A stretch of 33,465 nt of DNA from a virus, in the IMG/VR virus record IMGVR_UViG_3300036884_000103, positions 1-33,465 of that record, one strand, 5' to 3'. A program made the position numbers and the translations under genes. Shown in pieces: positions 746-17,508 of the stretch. Each line of letters begins with the position of its first letter. Within the stretch, counting starts at the first letter, position 1. The notes beneath the pieces are model-generated. The model did not search any database and was not told where the DNA came from. It saw only the letters and a program-made list of their open reading frames with translations.

Positions 746-837
746 CACCCCTGCAAGCAGTCGTGCCGAACGGTATCCTCGCGCACGCGATGGAGTGGCC
801 GTCGGATTTGTCCGTCATTGACGGAAACATCACGTAG
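742..837 (+). CDS. Possible 31-residue protein, unknown
   Basis: A short frame starts at ATG 742, overlapping the TGA of the membrane-protein gene as ATGA, and ends at TAG 835-837 just before the lipoprotein ribosome site. It would encode MTPLQAVVPNGILAHAMEWP and 11 further residues. No domain or membrane span is seen. The coupling is typical of this genome, but the frame is short and carries a perfect DNA dyad (811-825) inside it, so the region could instead be an untranslated leader for the lipoprotein gene. Confidence 0.3.
   Translation: MTPLQAVVPNGILAHAMEWPSDLSVIDGNIT
811..825. promoter_or_regulatory. 15-bp dyad upstream of the lipoprotein gene
   Basis: TCCGTCATTGACGGA has two perfect 7-base arms around one central base. 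It lies 24 bases before the lipoprotein ATG at 850 and is followed by an AGGAGG-type ribosome site. A copy matching at 13 of 15 bases lies at 8511-8525 in the same position relative to the Acb2-like gene. It could be an operator for a dimeric repressor or a small hairpin in the mRNA. Confidence 0.5.
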
Positions 838-4207: not shown

Positions 4208-4461
4208 TGCGGTACATCATCGGGGGGTTGGTGGGGGCACTAGTGGTGTTCGCAGTGCAATGGTTGTTGGACGTGCTCGCTCCAGTGCGGAAGCGGGAAC
4301 AGAGTGAGACGGAGCGGAGAGTGTTGGTGTACTGGCAGACCACCGAGAAGCTGATGGCAGAAAGTGCGATGAGTTTCGCCCGCATCGCGGACGCGGTGGA
4401 GGTGTGGCGGGATCGGTATCAGGGGCGGAAGTCAAAGAAGGCTGAGGAGGTGCAGCCGTGA
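4207..4461 (+). CDS. Small membrane-anchored helical protein
   Basis: This 84-residue protein starts at ATG 4207 (TGATG overlap) with GAGAGGAGGCGTG upstream. An N-terminal membrane span (residues about 3-22, YIIGGLVGALVVFAVQWLL) is followed by a charged helical domain rich in Arg, Glu and Lys. The shape resembles i-spanins and many other phage membrane proteins, but it lies far from the lysis genes, so no role is assigned. Confidence 0.6.
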   Translation: MRYIIGGLVGALVVFAVQWLLDVLAPVRKREQSETERRVLVYWQTTEKLMAESAMSFARIADAVEVWRDRYQGRKSKKAEEVQP

Positions 4462-5288
4462 AAGTCACCGTGCCGTCAGAGAAGGACCCCGGCGTGACGT
4501 ACGAGGTGGACCTCGACGCCCAGACATGCACGTGCCCGCATTTCCAGGCGCGACTGAAGGGGACCGGGAAACTCTGTAAGCATTTGGCCCAGGCGGGGCT
4601 CGACGCGCTGCCTCCGCTTGGTCAGACGGTCCCTGGCCCTGCCGTGGCGATCCCGCTCGGACAGGTACCCACGGCTGAGCCCACCGACACGATTCCCTGG
4701 GAAACGCTGGGCGAGGTCCCGGACGAGCCCGCTCCTCCCACCGCGGCCGAAGAGGCGTTCTGGGCCGAGCTGATGAAGCCCGACCCCGACCCGGAGGTGC
4801 TCGCCGTCGCGGTGCGGGACGAGACCAGGCTTCAGGAGGCCACCGCAGGGCACCTGGTGCGGGCCATCCTCAAGGCCGAGGCGTCGGTGGAGCAACTCGA
4901 AAAGCGTGCCCGGGCGGACGCGCAAGCGTGGTCGGAGATGATCGCAAAGGCGTCGGCCCATTCGGACGCTTGGCGGGCCATGGTCCTGGGCTGGATGCGG
5001 CGGAATGAGGTCAAGAATCTATCGTCTCCCTGGTGGACCGTGTACATCAGCAAGGGGAGGCCGTCCCTGAAGGTGCTCGACGAAGAGAAAACGATTGCCG
5101 CCTGTGAGAAGCACTATCCCAAGGCAGTCGAGACCAAGAAGGTGCTCGTGATGAAGGAATTGAAGGTGGCCCTGGACAGCCTGCCGAAGGTGTTCGCGGA
5201 GCGCCCCGGCGACATCGCAGGCGTGACGCTCCCCGCGATCGCGGAGGAGAAGACGGGCGAGCCGAGCCTGGGGATTCGGAAGAAGTGA
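4458..5288 (+). CDS. SWIM zinc finger fused to a Gp157-like domain
   Basis: This 276-residue protein starts at GTG 4458, overlapping the previous stop. Residues 24-42 form a SWIM zinc finger: Cys24, Cys26 (CTCPHF), Cys40 and His42 (CKHLAQAGLDA). A proline-rich linker leads to a helical region and then a C-terminal domain resembling siphophage Gp157, with WWTVYISKGRPSLKVLDE and an ending LGIRKK like the L-I-R-K end of that family. SWIM fingers bind DNA or proteins, and Gp157-like proteins lie near phage recombination genes. A role in handling single-stranded DNA beside the ERF protein is plausible but inferred. The fusion is unusual. Confidence 0.75.
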   Translation: MKVTVPSEKDPGVTYEVDLDAQTCTCPHFQARLKGTGKLCKHLAQAGLDALPPLGQTVPGPAVAIPLGQVPTAEPTDTIPWETLGEVPDEPAPPTAAEEAFWAELMKPDPDPEVLAVAVRDETRLQEATAGHLVRAILKAEASVEQLEKRARADAQAWSEMIAKASAHSDAWRAMVLGWMRRNEVKNLSSPWWTVYISKGRPSLKVLDEEKTIAACEKHYPKAVETKKVLVMKELKVALDSLPKVFAERPGDIAGVTLPAIAEEKTGEPSLGIRKK

Positions 5289-5293
5289 ACCAG

Positions 5294-5461
5294 TGCCCGC
5301 CCTGCGGTGTGGAAGGACACGCCTGGACAGTAGGGCTCGTGGGCGACGGGCATGGTAGGGGAGGGTTTTCAATTCAAAGCGCCACTTCGTTTCCCTCCCT
5401 GGCGTACCTAAGCACTCCCGGGAAATCGAGCAGCCGGTATCAAGGCCGGCCAAGGCGGGCA
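5294..5461 (+). other. Gene-free stretch with a long closing stem; possible structured leader
   Basis: TGCCCGCC (5294-5301) is the exact complement of GGCGGGCA (5454-5461). Inside lie other pairings, such as GCCGG/CCGGC at about 5433-5450 and AGGGG/CCCTCCCT-type arms. The 3' arm ends just before TTTCACAAGGAGGTGGGAG and the ATG at 5481, the same arrangement as the leaders at 5673 and 8779. A GTG frame from 5285 reads through here (CPPC near its start) but looks non-coding later. Confidence 0.4.
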
Positions 5462-5480
5462 TTTCACAAGGAGGTGGGAG

Positions 5481-5672
5481 ATGCAAGAACTTGTGGACAC
5501 ACTGAGGGACGTGCGAAACGGGGCTAGCGAACCTGGAAACCTATTGCGTGATGCCGCTGTCAGGTGGACCACAGATGCCATACACGTCTATCGAGGCAAA
5601 CTGTTCGCCCGCGCACTGGCAATCTCGGCAGCGCTGGCGCAGTTCGCGGCTGAACTGGAGAAAACGAAGTAG
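5481..5672 (+). CDS. Unknown 63-residue helical protein
   Basis: ATG 5481 follows a strong ribosome site ACAAGGAGGTGGGAG. The product (MQELVDTLRDVRNGASEPGN, then an Ala/Leu-rich C-terminal helix ending in ELEKTK) looks wholly helical and soluble. No family is recognised. It lies between two structured gene-free leaders (5294-5461 and 5673-5842), and its TAG stop is the first base triplet of the second leader. Confidence 0.65.
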   Translation: MQELVDTLRDVRNGASEPGNLLRDAAVRWTTDAIHVYRGKLFARALAISAALAQFAAELEKTK

Positions 5673-5842
5673 GGCAGGCAAGGGGCGCGTGGGCTGTAAA
5701 GCAAAGACGACACGCGCAGGGGGTGGGCTGGTACGGTCTCAAAGCGGTGGGCGGATTGAAATGTCCGCTCTGGGCACAGCGTATAGGAATTTACTCCGAG
5801 GCCCTAGGGACCGACCAGCCCATCTTTCACGAGGAGGGAGTG
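5673..5842 (+). ncRNA. Structured leader element, copy 1
   Basis: Two stems are clear. Stem 1 is GCGCGTG (5685-5691) with CACGCGC (5711-5717). Stem 2 is TGGGCTGGT (5724-5732) with ACCAGCCCA (5814-5822) and encloses a small hairpin GCGGA/TCCGC (5751-5755/5764-5768). The ribosome site GAGGAGGGAG follows nine bases after stem 2. The copy at 8779-8954 shares AGGGGCGCGTGG, CTGTAAAG, CACGCGC, GGGGGTGG, CTGGT, CGACCAGCC and GAGGAGGG. In stem 2 two pairs are exchanged (T:A, G:C here; G:C, T:A there), which supports a real RNA helix. The family is unknown. It is probably a cis-regulatory leader of the next gene. Confidence 0.6.
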
Positions 5843-7309
5843 ATGGACGCAGAAACGTATTGGTGCCCGTCTTGTTGTGCAGACCACGGACCAAAAGAAA
5901 ATTGCGCTGACTATGCCGCGATGCGTCCTCTTACAGAACAGGACGTGATTCAAGCAGAGAACAAGGGCTACGACGGTGGACGAAAGCATGGGCAAGAAGA
6001 AAAGGAAGTAGAGATCGCCACCCTCCGCACCCAGCTTAGGAATGAAGTCGAGGAGCGGCTGCGTGTGGTCGGGATATTGAGGGCCGCATTGTCGATGGAT
6101 ACCACGGAGATATCTACCCTCCGCGTGCAACTCGCCGCAGCACAGGAGAAAGTTGCGAGTCGGGATGCTAGCCTCGCGGCGTTGCGAGTCGAGGACCAGC
6201 CTGCTTTCGTTCGGCTGCAAGAGGAGAATGCGCGGCTGAGGGAGCAACTGGAAACCGAACGCATGCGCCTTGCCGGATGTGGTGTGGCAGCAATGCAGAA
6301 CACCGCGGCTTCCACAAACGATCGTATTCTACCGGAGAGCCCCTATTGGTCTGCTTCCTATGGAGACGTATGCAGGGCTGTGGATCGGGAGATCGTGCTG
6401 AGGGAGCAACTGGCGGCAGCGATTGCCTTCAGCGACGAGAACATCGAGCGGCTGACGAAGCTGCACGGTCAAGCGTTGACGGACCTGGAGGCGGCGCGGG
6501 AGGAGGACGAAACCTCCCGAGAACTGCACGCTGCAGCGATGGCGGGCGTAGATAAAACGTGTGAGCGATTGCATGAGGAGAATACAACCCTTAGAACAGG
6601 TGTCTCTATTGCGCTTGCTCGTATTGCCACAGCGCAGGAGGAGATTGCGAAACTTCGCACGTGCGAGACGTGTGACGGAACGGGAATGATGACGGTCGTG
6701 GCCCGTGTCTTATTGCCAGATGAACGGGAAGAGGTGGAGCAGGAGCTGTGCGGAGAATGTCACGGGACTGGGCTCCATCACTACGCCATGACACTCGATA
6801 AGTGTGCGGCCCTGGACGCCGAGAATGCGCGGCTGGTGCAATTATTGGCTGAAGGTGGTCCGGATCGGTGTTCTGAATGTGGAAGTTATAACACGTCATT
6901 TCACTCACATGACTGCGTTACTCGCGAGAATGCGCGGCTGGTGCGGGAGCGGGATGAACAGAAGCGATGTAATCACCTGCATTGCCGTGCAGCCTGCCAG
7001 GACGGTGAACATTTCATTAAGTGCCAAGACTGTGGGCTTGAGTGGATTCAGGCTTGTGACCATCACATGCACGTTGACCTAGCTATCGCCCTCGCCCGCA
7101 TCGCGGCGCTGGAGGCGGGCGTGCGCGACATTTCCGAAAGTTGCGAGAATTGCACGAATGCCACCGACCTCCGCGAGATGGCGTGGCGAATCCTCCACGG
7201 CCAGGATATCGCTAGACCAGCGCCGTGTGACCTAGAACAGCGCATCGCGGCGCTGGAGTCGGCATTACGGGTGATTGAACCAAATCATCCGACACTCGAT
7301 ACCTTTTGA
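5843..7309 (+). CDS. Large coiled-coil protein with several zinc-binding motifs
   Basis: This 488-residue protein is read from ATG 5843 after GAGGAGGGAGTG. An in-frame ATG at 5723 lies inside the structured leader and is rejected. It opens with a Cys cluster (CPSCC), followed by long coiled coils with repeated ENARL, IATLR and IAALE motifs. A DnaJ-like pair CETCDGTG and CGECHGTG (about residues 274-310) follows, then CSECGSYN, CNHLHC and CQDCGLEW. This suggests modular zinc sites on a coiled-coil stalk. Similar modules recur in the genes at 8955 and 9622, with shared DNA repeats. The function is unknown. Such genes are common in uncharacterised phages. Confidence 0.75.
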   Translation: MDAETYWCPSCCADHGPKENCADYAAMRPLTEQDVIQAENKGYDGGRKHGQEEKEVEIATLRTQLRNEVEERLRVVGILRAALSMDTTEISTLRVQLAAAQEKVASRDASLAALRVEDQPAFVRLQEENARLREQLETERMRLAGCGVAAMQNTAASTNDRILPESPYWSASYGDVCRAVDREIVLREQLAAAIAFSDENIERLTKLHGQALTDLEAAREEDETSRELHAAAMAGVDKTCERLHEENTTLRTGVSIALARIATAQEEIAKLRTCETCDGTGMMTVVARVLLPDEREEVEQELCGECHGTGLHHYAMTLDKCAALDAENARLVQLLAEGGPDRCSECGSYNTSFHSHDCVTRENARLVRERDEQKRCNHLHCRAACQDGEHFIKCQDCGLEWIQACDHHMHVDLAIALARIAALEAGVRDISESCENCTNATDLREMAWRILHGQDIARPAPCDLEQRIAALESALRVIEPNHPTLDTF

Positions 7310-7321
7310 AAGGGGGAGCAC

Positions 7322-8506
7322 ATGGCAGGAACAGCAGCAGCACCACGCACAGAGGCACAGCCAGCCGGATCCGCGCTGGCGCTCATCACCCTGAACCCGC
7401 AAGACCTGTTGGCCCGGGCCGTGGACAAGGGGGCCACGGTCGAGACGCTGGAACGGCTGATGGCGCTGGCGAAGGACATGAAGGCGATCCGCGCGAAAGA
7501 GGCGTGGCACGAGGCGATGGCAGAGTTCCAGCGCACCTGCCCGCCGATCACGAAGACGAAGAAGGCCGACATCCAAACGACGCGCGGCTCGTACTCCTAC
7601 CGCTACGCGCCGTTGGACGAGATCATGGAGGTCGTCCGCCCGATCATGGGAGGGCTCGGCTTGTCCGTGTGCTGGTCGTCACGGATAGAGGCGAACGGCG
7701 TGGCGGTGAACTGCCGTATTTCCCACGTCCTCGGACACTCGGAGGACTCAGGCGAGGTCCGCATGCCCATCGCCGGCGCGGAGGAGCGGGGCGGCGGCAA
7801 TCCGGCACAACGGGTCGGGAGTGCCCTCTCCTATGCCAAGCGCTATTCATTTTTGTCGTCCAGCGGTCTCACCCCAGAGGATGATGACGACGCGCAGGGG
7901 ACCACGAGCGGCGACAGCGCGCAGGGAGGACAGGGCGAGGGCGGACCGCGGGCAGACAGCGGCCCGGTGTTCCCGTTTGGCAAGCACAAGGGGGAACCGC
8001 CGTCCGCCCTGGACGTGACCGACTTGCACAAAGAGCTGGCCTTCTGGCAGACGAAGACCGCGGAGGAGGAGAACGATCGGTACAAGGCTGGCAACCAGCG
8101 GCTCGTGGACGCCATCCAGGAGGCGATTGCCGAGAAGACCGCGAAGCCGGAGACGTCGACCGGCTCCGCCGAGACGGGCAAGAAGAACCTGATCCACCGA
8201 CACCCCGAGGACGAGAAGACGGCGGCCCCCGCTGCCGCTGGTCCCTCCACGCTGGACCTGCTAGGCATCCGCGATAAACTGTGGCTCGACATCAAGGCGC
8301 TCGCCGGGCCGCGCGGGTACGACAAGAAGAAGCTCATCGCCTACGTGCGCACGACGCACAAAGTGGGTCCGCAGGAGCTGGGCCTGGAGCAGGTGCGCGC
8401 GCTCAAGATGTTCCTGGCCGGCGAACCCGTGACCGACCAGGCGGCCGAGGAGGCGCGGCTGGTGGAAGTGGCCAAGACCGAGCCGCCCGAGGACACCCTG
8501 CCGTAA
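7322..8506 (+). CDS. ERF-family single-strand annealing protein
   Basis: This 394-residue protein starts at ATG 7322 after GAAAGGGGGAGCAC. Residues about 60-190 match the ERF family: EAMAEFQRTCPPITKTKKAD, YRYAPLDEIMEVVRPIM, GLGLSVCW, CRISHVLGHSE and the signature NPAQRVGSALSYAKRY (160-175), followed by an acidic DDDD run. ERF proteins anneal single-stranded DNA in phage recombination. Residues 217-225 (FPFGKHKGE) begin a second short domain resembling the fGKhKG motif of DUF3820-type proteins. The tail is charged and longer than in typical ERF proteins (around 200-250 residues). Confidence 0.9.
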   Translation: MAGTAAAPRTEAQPAGSALALITLNPQDLLARAVDKGATVETLERLMALAKDMKAIRAKEAWHEAMAEFQRTCPPITKTKKADIQTTRGSYSYRYAPLDEIMEVVRPIMGGLGLSVCWSSRIEANGVAVNCRISHVLGHSEDSGEVRMPIAGAEERGGGNPAQRVGSALSYAKRYSFLSSSGLTPEDDDDAQGTTSGDSAQGGQGEGGPRADSGPVFPFGKHKGEPPSALDVTDLHKELAFWQTKTAEEENDRYKAGNQRLVDAIQEAIAEKTAKPETSTGSAETGKKNLIHRHPEDEKTAAPAAAGPSTLDLLGIRDKLWLDIKALAGPRGYDKKKLIAYVRTTHKVGPQELGLEQVRALKMFLAGEPVTDQAAEEARLVEVAKTEPPEDTLP

Positions 8507-8510
8507 CCAT

Positions 8511-8525
8511 TCCGTCCATGACGGA
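8511..8525. promoter_or_regulatory. 15-bp dyad upstream of the Acb2-like gene
   Basis: TCCGTCCATGACGGA has 6-base arms around CAT, begins four bases after the ERF stop and ends 22 bases before the ATG at 8548. It matches the dyad at 811-825 at 13 of 15 bases, and the next bases (CATTCACACAAGGAGG) also resemble that site. It may be an operator or an mRNA hairpin shared by two genes 7.7 kb apart. Confidence 0.5.
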
Positions 8526-8547
8526 CATTCACACAAGGAGGAGAGAG

Positions 8548-8778
8548 ATGGCAAGGATTGACACGAAGGAGATGGAGACGCGATTCACCTACCACAAGCC
8601 GCAAGGCACACAGGGATATCGGTATATCCAGATCCGGGACAAGGCCAAGGATCTGGCGTACTTCATCGTCGAGAACACGCCGGAAAGCCGGGAGCAGTCG
8701 TTGGCCATCACCGAGTTGGAGCAGGCCATCTTCTGGGCGAACGCGGCGATCGCGCGGCGGGAAGTCCCGGTCGAGTAG
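8548..8778 (+). CDS. acb2: Acb2-type anti-CBASS cyclic-nucleotide sponge
   Basis: This 76-residue protein starts at ATG 8548 after CACAAGGAGGAGAGAG. The pattern MARIDTKEMETRFTYHKPQG, then RYIQIRDKAKDLA, SREQSLAITELEQA and WANAAIARRE, is that of the Acb2/Tad1-hairpin family. Acb2 proteins are small all-helical oligomers that bind cyclic di- and trinucleotides made by CBASS and so block abortive infection. Tyr15 in FTYH and the basic RD-K region are in the places where the family contacts ligand. The length is typical. It lies alone between the ERF gene and a structured leader, with its own dyad and ribosome site. Function in this phage is inferred from family. Confidence 0.8.
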   Translation: MARIDTKEMETRFTYHKPQGTQGYRYIQIRDKAKDLAYFIVENTPESREQSLAITELEQAIFWANAAIARREVPVE

Positions 8779-8954
8779 GGCGGGCGTTTCAGGGGCGCGT
8801 GGTGAGGGCGCTTGGGTAGGCAAGCCTGTAAAGGGGAAGGGCTATAGATGGTCCGTAGCCCTGTGTAACCACGCGCTGGGGGTGGCTGGTTGGAGTTAGT
8901 TAGGACAATTGCGATCCTTGGCTACGACCAGCCACTTTTCTTGAGGAGGGGACG
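8779..8954 (+). ncRNA. Structured leader element, copy 2
   Basis: It begins right after the Acb2 stop. Stem 1 is GCGCGTGGT (8795-8803) with ACCACGCGC (8868-8876), enclosing AGGC/GCCT (about 8818-8826) and GGGCTA/TAGCCC (8839-8844/8856-8861) hairpins. Stem 2 is GTGGCTGGT (8882-8890) with ACCAGCCAC (8927-8935), followed by TTTTC and the ribosome site GAGGAGGGG of the gene at 8955. Conserved blocks and two compensatory pairs relate it to 5673-5842. The sequence between stems differs greatly while the stems persist, as in a structured RNA. No known riboswitch class is recognised. Confidence 0.6.
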
Positions 8955-9467
8955 ATGAGTTGCTTTTCTGATTCTCACGTATTTTCTCGTGCTGGATCAA
9001 CCTCGGATTTACCGCCCATAGAGGACAGCGCACGATGCGATTGTGGCTTGGTGACGTGGGGAGAACTGCGGGACCGTGCCCTAGGGGGGTGTGAGTCTCT
9101 CCCTACCCTACGAGCCGAGATCGCCGCCCTCCGCGCCAAGCTGGAGACGGTGACGCGGGAGAAAGGTACTACCGTTATCGGGATGCACATCAACAGATTA
9201 TTGCACGATGAACGGTGCCCGATGACAACCAATCCGTCCGGGAACGCTGAATGTGATTGTGCCGTTGCGGCCGTCAATAGCCTTCAGGCGAAACTGGAAG
9301 CGGTGACGCGGGAGCGGCAAGGTTTTGAAAGTGCCCTTCTTGAAGAAATGCGCCTGCACTCTCGGACAGTTCGTGAGCGTGCCGCCGTCCTCGACGATTT
9401 TGCTGGTTTTCTCCGCCGCATCGCGGCGCTGGAGGCGGCGGGGGAACTAAACAAAGGGGGTGAATAA
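8955..9467 (+). CDS. Coiled-coil protein with Cys motifs
   Basis: This 170-residue protein is read from ATG 8955. The N-terminus has CDCG (residues about 28-31), then a coiled coil containing AEIAALRAKLETVTRE, a central CDC motif, a near repeat SLQAKLEAVTRERQ and a final RIAALEAAGE. It is a shorter relative of the proteins at 5843 and 9622. Its first coil is encoded by 47 bases identical to part of the 9622 gene, and its last by 30 identical bases. The function is unknown. Confidence 0.65.
   Translation: MSCFSDSHVFSRAGSTSDLPPIEDSARCDCGLVTWGELRDRALGGCESLPTLRAEIAALRAKLETVTREKGTTVIGMHINRLLHDERCPMTTNPSGNAECDCAVAAVNSLQAKLEAVTRERQGFESALLEEMRLHSRTVRERAAVLDDFAGFLRRIAALEAAGELNKGGE
9117..9163 (+). repeat. 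47-bp perfect direct repeat (second copy 9688-9734)
   Basis: The two copies encode the same coil EIAALRAKLETVTRE in the genes at 8955 and 9622. A second shared block of 30 identical bases lies at 9416-9445 and 9876-9905, with a partial third copy at 7096-7118. The repeats show that these genes exchange or duplicate coiled-coil cassettes and may recombine. Confidence 0.9.
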
Positions 9468-9688
9468 TGGGAGGGTTCAAATCATCCGTACTCAGCAAGT
9501 ATGACGGCTATAAATTCTATGATGGTCCGACCGATCCTGACAGATATCCAAGGGGGTCTGTGCCCAAACCTACGCGAAAGGTAAAACGAAAAAAGAAGCA
9601 GCCCCACGCTAAGGAGGGGAAATGGATATTGTTGACATGGGCGGAACAATGTCGGATTTGCGCGACGAATGCTCTGACCTCCGGATAG
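9467..9688 (+). CDS. Unknown small basic protein
   Basis: This 73-residue frame starts at ATG 9467 (overlapping TAA, with AAGGGGGTG upstream). The N-terminal half is Tyr/Asp-rich (SKYDGYKFYDGPTDPDRYPR), and a strongly basic stretch (RKVKRKKK) follows. The last 22 codons overlap the next gene in another frame, so the true C-terminus could be under dual constraint. No family is recognised. The start and first 50 residues look real. Confidence 0.5.
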   Translation: MGGFKSSVLSKYDGYKFYDGPTDPDRYPRGSVPKPTRKVKRKKKQPHAKEGKWILLTWAEQCRICATNALTSG

Positions 9689-10056
9689 AGATCGCCGCCC
9701 TCCGCGCCAAGCTGGAGACGGTGACGCGGGAGAACACACGGCTCACCAATGCGACCCTCTGCGACGTTTGTGGAGGCACAGGGCAGCCACCCCCCGAGGT
9801 TTGCGCGTGTGAGGGGACACACCAAGCATGGAAGGTGCTGGAAAATGTTCGGCTAGAGAACGTGCGGTTGGAGTCCCGCATCGCGGCGCTGGAGGCGGCG
9901 GGGGATGCTTTGGAGTCTGCAAGCGTAGAGGGAAGCTTCGACGAGCTTGCCGTCGAGTATGCCCGGTATCGCGGATACCTGAACGTCGAACTTGCCCCAG
10001 AGATAGGCTATGCGGTCAAGAAGTGGCGCGATGTGCGCGGAGGCGGCCATGAGTGA
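9622..10056 (+). CDS. Coiled-coil protein with a DnaJ-like zinc motif
   Basis: This 144-residue protein starts at ATG 9622 after CTAAGGAGGGGAA. The order is a short acidic start, coil IEIAALRAKLETVTRENTRL, then CDVCGGTG and CAC (one DnaJ-type half-site and a partial second), a second coil ending RIAALEAAGDALES, and a C-terminal ELAPEIGYAVKKWRDV segment. It shares modules with the genes at 5843 and 8955. It may bind one zinc ion. Function is unknown. It overlaps the previous frame by 67 bases. Confidence 0.65.
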   Translation: MDIVDMGGTMSDLRDECSDLRIEIAALRAKLETVTRENTRLTNATLCDVCGGTGQPPPEVCACEGTHQAWKVLENVRLENVRLESRIAALEAAGDALESASVEGSFDELAVEYARYRGYLNVELAPEIGYAVKKWRDVRGGGHE

Positions 10057-17155: not shown

Positions 17156-17508
17156 TGAACGCTGGAAGAAAGTTAGACGCATTAGTGGCGGAGGCGGTGA
17201 TGGGGATTTATCCGTTAAAAGATCCGTTCGGGGGAACACGGTGGCCGTGTAGTGACCACCAACGGCTCGGAGATGGATTTTCTACCGATCCACCGCCCTA
17301 CTCCACCGACATCGCAGCAGCATGGGAGGTAGTGGACAAGTTTCCTATTGTCGGTGTCAATAAAATACAGGACAACAAAAGAGGATTACAATACCGAGAA
17401 TGTATAATACGTAATACGAACGGAATCAAGTTTCACTCAACTGCGTCAACCGCCCCGCTTGCTATCTGCTTGGCCGCGTTGGAAGCGGTCGGTATGGAGG
17501 TCACCTGA
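17155..17508 (+). CDS. Phage ABA-sandwich domain protein (copy 2)
   Basis: This 117-residue protein is read from ATG 17155, overlapping the terminase stop. An earlier in-frame ATG lies inside the terminase gene. The blocks MNAGRKLDALVAEAVMGI, YSTDIAAAWEVVDKF and TAPLAICLAALEAVGMEV match the ABA-sandwich family and the protein at 1703. The central part is A/T-richer and shorter than in copy 1. The role is unknown. The separate placement of the two copies suggests independent gain rather than tandem duplication. Confidence 0.82.
   Translation: MNAGRKLDALVAEAVMGIYPLKDPFGGTRWPCSDHQRLGDGFSTDPPPYSTDIAAAWEVVDKFPIVGVNKIQDNKRGLQYRECIIRNTNGIKFHSTASTAPLAICLAALEAVGMEVT

Follow-up and report, generated by a model that had tools for sequence, protein, structure and literature searches.

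The window analysed here, the 33,465-base IMG/VR virus record IMGVR_UViG_3300036884_000103, carries two gene-free leaders that are related to each other; their relatedness, the conservation of both of their stems and their fixed layout relative to the stop codon, the Shine-Dalgarno (SD) sequence and the start codon are evident from the comparison of the two copies (Table 1). We propose, tentatively and with a probability of roughly 0.4, that the leaders are intercistronic, cis-acting tandem-hairpin RNAs which control the translation or the processing of the next gene; an action of the RNA, at a stage after transcription, is what we infer from the features described below.

Relatedness and extent of the two leaders

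The TAG stops of the preceding genes were confirmed at 5670-5672 and 8776-8778, the leaders starting at the next base, and the ordered sequence blocks which the sequence-only reading had listed as common to both leaders were all recovered, in order and in place. Local alignment of copy 1 to copy 2 scored 240.5, while 3,000 dinucleotide-shuffled pairs reached a maximum of 227 (mean 159, sd 16), and the best match of each leader in the window, self-overlapping windows aside, is the other leader. The analysis supports the proposal of two related structured leaders immediately 5' of ribosome sites and, judged by their sequences, the two stretches are true relatives. The similarity spans the interval from the upstream stop codon to the next start codon, the flanking genes being unrelated, and resides mainly in the stem arms, the CTGTAAAG box and the SD region. 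The loops differ widely between the copies, as had been noted, including in length: copy 2 has two additional hairpins within the first stem (P1), and the loop of its second stem (P2) is shorter than that of copy 1.

Table 1 Features of the two leaders and of the neighbouring genes
Feature	Position	Strand	Remarks
63-aa gene	5481-5672	+	Ahead of leader copy 1
Leader copy 1	5673-5842	+	After TAG of the 63-aa gene, up to ATG of gene 5843-7309
Copy 1 P1 5' arm GCGCGTG	5685-5691	+	Pairs with 5711-5717, probability 0.97-0.99
Copy 1 conserved box CTGTAAAG	5694-5701	+	In P1 loop; GCU[GUAA]AGC possible, mini-hairpin probability 0.33
Copy 1 P1 3' arm CACGCGC	5711-5717	+	Partner of 5685-5691
Copy 1 P2 5' arm GGGGTGGGCTGGT-A-CGGTCTC	5720-5740	+	One bulged A; pairs with 5807-5826
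Copy 1 P2 3' arm	5807-5826	+	4 bases to SD; 8 without outer G.U pairs
Copy 1 Shine-Dalgarno GAGGAGGG	5831-5838	+	Of gene 5843-7309; from sequence
488-aa coiled-coil protein	5843-7309	+	Zinc-ribbon-like CxxC motifs; 3' of copy 1
Erf-type single-strand annealing protein	7322-8506	+	Between the 488-aa gene and the Acb2-like gene
Acb2/Tad1 hairpin-domain protein	8548-8778	+	PF24729, E 3e-17; 5' of copy 2
Leader copy 2	8779-8954	+	After TAG of the Acb2-like gene, up to ATG of gene 8955-9467
Copy 2 P1 5' arm GCGCGTGGT	8795-8803	+	Pairs with 8868-8876, probability 0.94-1.0
Copy 2 conserved box CTGTAAAG	8826-8833	+	CCU[GUAA]AGG possible, mini-hairpin probability 0.12-0.22
Copy 2 P1 3' arm ACCACGCGC	8868-8876	+	Partner of 8795-8803
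Copy 2 P2 5' arm GGGGGTGGCTGGTTG	8878-8892	+	Pairs with 8925-8939
Copy 2 P2 3' arm CGACCAGCCACTTTT	8925-8939	+	Partner of 8878-8892
Copy 2 Shine-Dalgarno GAGGAGGG	8943-8950	+	Of gene 8955-9467; from sequence
170-aa coiled-coil-like protein	8955-9467	+	3' of copy 2; replication genes follow

Stem architecture

Both leaders fold better than their shuffles (z -3.1 and -2.9), and the GCGCGTG/CACGCGC stem and the second stem, as originally described, prevail in the predicted ensembles, their core pairs having probabilities of about 0.97-1.0. P1 is 7 bp long in copy 1 and 9 bp in copy 2, and only one or two bases lie between the P1 and P2 helices. The mini-hairpin that can form at the CTGTAAAG box is GNRA-like and forms in only a minority of the predicted ensemble of either copy. 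P2 had been read as a 9-bp stem ending before the ribosome site; the stem exists, but it is longer, about 20 bp in copy 1 (the bulged A separating 13 bp, with the outer G.U pairs counted, from a further 7 bp) and 15 bp in copy 2, where further interrupted pairs follow and the predicted probabilities are 0.97-1.0 for the inner and 0.43-0.98 for the outer G.U pairs. Its 3' arm stops 3-4 bases before GAGGAGGG, or about 8 when the core arm alone is counted. The region from -30 to -15 is predicted to be unpaired at 0.03 and 0.06 in the two leaders, the two lowest values among 18 genes examined. The SD sequence itself is predicted to be open at 0.85 in copy 1 and at 0.11-0.20 in copy 2; since these predictions conflict between the copies, SD sequestration as a common switch was rejected, and a simple conserved SD-masking switch is not indicated.

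The rarity of this layout was assessed with a descriptor consisting of a perfect stem of at least 7 bp followed by a stem of at least 8 bp, with 2-14 bases from the end of the second stem to [AG]GGAGG, and a start codon after it. In 483 kb it matched both copies, a near-identical contig (L004, see below) and two other sites (L012 and L027), while 0, 0, 0, 0, 1, 0, 0 and 3 matches were obtained in eight controls whose upstream sequence had been shuffled. The P1-P2-SD layout thus occurs twice in the 33-kb window, whereas the shuffled controls average 0.5 per 483 kb. The L012 match (4450-4552, minus strand), which the covariance model also returned (E 0.17), is ascribed to chance, because it overlaps the end of an apparent coding frame and a match of this kind is to be expected at the rate of the controls.

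Paired differences between the copies

The outer pairs of P2 had been interpreted as a double compensatory change, which is true letter by letter if the arms are compared without gaps, but the difference is simplest as one event: the gapped alignment gives copy 1 a G:C pair that copy 2 lacks (TGGGCTGGT/ACCAGCCCA versus TGGCTGGT/ACCAGCCA), most simply a single inserted base pair, coordinated on both arms. Two G-C/G-U exchanges between the copies are also found in outer P2, and copy 1 has G:C as the outer pair of the CU[GUAA]AG mini-hairpin where copy 2 has C:G. The P1 stem, the same in both, therefore provides no covariation. The covariation score was reached by 264 of 500 shuffles, two sequences being too few for this statistic.

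Rejected identities and other local signals

A tRNA-like structure was rejected: ARAGORN found none, and the leaders lack both a 5-bp anticodon stem and a T arm. CTGTAAA resembles the tRNA-Tyr anticodon loop, and the pattern matched true tRNA-Tyr genes too. A coding extension of gene 5843 from the GTG at 5723 was rejected as well; the frame is open in copy 1 yet closed by an in-frame TAG at 8896 in copy 2, therefore the conservation is not at the protein level and there is no N-terminal extension. A scan for sigma-70 types found no sigma-70-like promoter in either leader, and within 5200-9700 it gave a single promoter-like site, located on the minus strand and at chance level. An intrinsic terminator or attenuator common to both copies, with a short-loop GC hairpin and a U run behind it, was discarded, a terminator-like hairpin being present in copy 2 alone (8919-8934); the region has 2 terminator-like hairpins versus 3.6 in shuffles.

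A separate near-palindrome, TCCGTCNNTGACGGA, occurs twice in the window (811-825 and 8511-8525) and in none of the shuffled windows. Its copies lie 10-15 bases upstream of the AGGAGG ribosome sites of genes 850 and 8548 (the Acb2-like gene), and it might serve as an operator or form a hairpin in the RNA.

Search for further members

The window has no match to a known RNA family (Rfam 15, gathering threshold), in agreement with the sequence-only reading, and in permissive Rfam searches neither leader had more than chance-level matches, which fell far short of the gathering scores. Exact-pattern scans of 2.9 million viral contigs and 85,000 genomes found the element in only two other contigs, IMGVR_UViG_3300037090_000130 (L004) and IMGVR_UViG_3300037090_000137 (L024), both from one other metagenome. 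In these, copy 1 is identical to that of the window and copy 2 has one loop substitution, and by sequence the two contigs apparently represent the same virus as the window. The end of L004 and the start of L024 break inside P1 of copy 2, with a gap of roughly 20 bases, for which a strong hairpin or population variation at that place may be responsible. BLAST of 50,697 phage records with both copies, and of plasmids with copy 1, found no further virus.

A covariance model (R1) was made from shortened copies with the variable loops removed, so that the scores of both copies themselves are by construction; applied to the fetched loci and 19 related virus records, it found only L004 and L024 beside the window. 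In related phages retrieved via Acb2 or Erf, a leader of this type is absent both downstream of Acb2 and upstream of Erf. The model search of 299 bacterial genomes of an arbitrary phylum, chosen without regard to the host, was empty and is uninformative. Pattern matches in L006, L007, L025, L027-L033 and L034-L040 were rejected on inspection, both stems together being present in none. A third copy before gene 5481 (5289-5480) was also rejected: this gap has neither CTGTAAAG nor the P1/P2 blocks, and its alignment is weak. The same gap has a long-range stem of its own at 5293-5300/5455-5462 (TGCCCGCC/GGCGGGCA), just before TTTCACAAGGAGG.

The suggestion of a new cis-regulatory RNA class is thus not borne out, the searches, as far as they extended, having returned the same virus only and no homologues with covarying stems. 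Either the element is new in this lineage, or it diverges too fast for the patterns used. It is doubtful that the pair are members of a new, rapidly diverging class of phage cis-regulatory RNAs; such a class would be defined by a P1 with the CTGTAAAG box and a P2 abutting the ribosome site, and its other members would be too diverged for exact patterns or would reside in unsearched metagenomes. The element is a candidate with n = 2 in one virus, which is a lead and not a class, and a class is not established.

Genome setting

The large terminase has its closest relatives among named phage records at 40% identity, therefore the virus is remote from sequenced phages. The leaders sit around an early operon with a recombination gene and an Acb2-like counter-defence gene. 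The product of the latter, encoded directly after the Erf recombinase, is by its sequence likely a cyclic-nucleotide sponge acting in counter-defence, and it has relatives with 54-69% identity in ten other viral contigs. Both leaders had been said to precede coiled-coil genes; both proteins do look coiled-coil, but homology between them is not detectable (BLASTP E 0.09). A third related coiled-coil gene, at 9622, has no P1/P2-type leader, which counts against the explanation that we favour.

The coiled-coil genes 5843-7309, 8955-9467 and 9622-10056 have the recurring modules EIAALRAKLETVTRE, ENARL, RIAALEA and CxxCxGTG, and a module of the 488-aa protein (about residues 80-229) is also present in Pseudomonas syringae phages. 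Elsewhere in the window, two small-protein paralogues at 1748-2119 and 17200-17508 (BLASTP E 1e-10), far apart in the genome, have the common motifs STDIAAAWEVV and TAPL(A/S)ICLAAL.

Possible modes of action

In the mechanism that we propose, both copies would lie in gaps of one polycistronic phage message, each with a strong SD sequence downstream, and each would fold into P1, with CTGTAAAG in its loop, and the adjacent long P2, whose outer, G.U-rich end would stop a few bases ahead of the SD. The stable helix over the ribosome standby region would likely uncouple the downstream gene from the preceding one and set its translation level. The CTGTAAAG box may be a point of contact for a protein or the ribosome. 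The RNA is favoured over the DNA level because of the G.U pairs and the coordinated base-pair indel in P2.

After post-transcriptional control by a standby helix, RNase III processing is the next candidate: P2 would be the processing site, and the cut would free and stabilise the 5' end of the message of the coiled-coil gene, as at the intercistronic sites of T7. We consider this unlikely, although the place between genes just ahead of the SD fits such a site. A processing site would call for a duplex of about two helical turns, and P2 has 20 bp with one bulge in copy 1 and 15 bp with further, interrupted pairs in copy 2; P1 and the CTGTAAAG box would be superfluous, and the inner parts of the two duplexes are unlike.

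The similarity might also be kept for DNA reasons, as a module-exchange boundary or a protein-binding site left from a cassette duplication. It does run from stop codon to start codon between unrelated flanking genes, and phage operators can sit at start sites, as was suggested for the ESAS elements of mycobacteriophages (PMC3203893). Neither the joint change of both P2 arms nor the tolerance of G.U pairs in the outer stem would be explained, however, and this reading too has a low probability.

By analogy with the put RNAs of phage HK022, the element might be a nascent-RNA antiterminator that binds RNA polymerase. HK022 has two related RNAs with two stem-loops each (PMC9378689), matched here by two near-adjacent helices, but the leaders are about 165 nt long and stand mid-operon at ribosome sites with no same-strand promoter-like site nearby, so that a put-like role is improbable. 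Least probable is a decayed duplication without function, its folding due to GC-rich sequence, which would accord with there being only two copies and with the modest fold z near -3, but not with stems and boxes that were kept where the loops were not, in a layout so rare by chance.

Comparison with known systems

In phage T7, intercistronic RNase III sites are formed by a long irregular duplex between genes of one message. P2 of the leaders is likewise a long irregular intergenic duplex near the next ribosome site; unlike the T7 sites, the leaders have another conserved helix beside P2, and a box in its loop is conserved too.

The SAS and ESAS of Cluster K mycobacteriophages are repeats upstream of the ribosome sites of some non-structural genes (PMC3203893). 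SAS is a 13-bp box in 11-19 copies, and ESAS are inverted repeats with 17-bp arms and a 4-13 bp spacer, for which the authors found little support for mRNA hairpins (PMC3203893). Similarly to ESAS, the leaders have an inverted repeat, the P2 arms, directly 5' of the ribosome site; unlike SAS/ESAS, they number two, have two helices and show paired changes. The SAS consensus GGGATAGGAGCCC, with up to 3 mismatches allowed, gave 5 matches in all, which is below chance, and 0 in the leaders.

HK022 putL and putR, each about 70 nt, are located after early promoters, and put RNA binds the zinc-binding domain of RNA polymerase and suppresses termination (PMC9378689). The leaders resemble them in being two related copies, each with two adjacent stem-loops, and differ in size, in their mid-operon place and in that no promoter or polymerase link was found. 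The leaders thus have the position of ESAS and the architecture of HK022 put, the SAS box and the put location having failed to match. If functional, they would be among the few repeated structured intercistronic phage RNAs whose differences between copies preserve pairing, and would offer a concrete test case of how a phage tunes neighbouring genes on one message.
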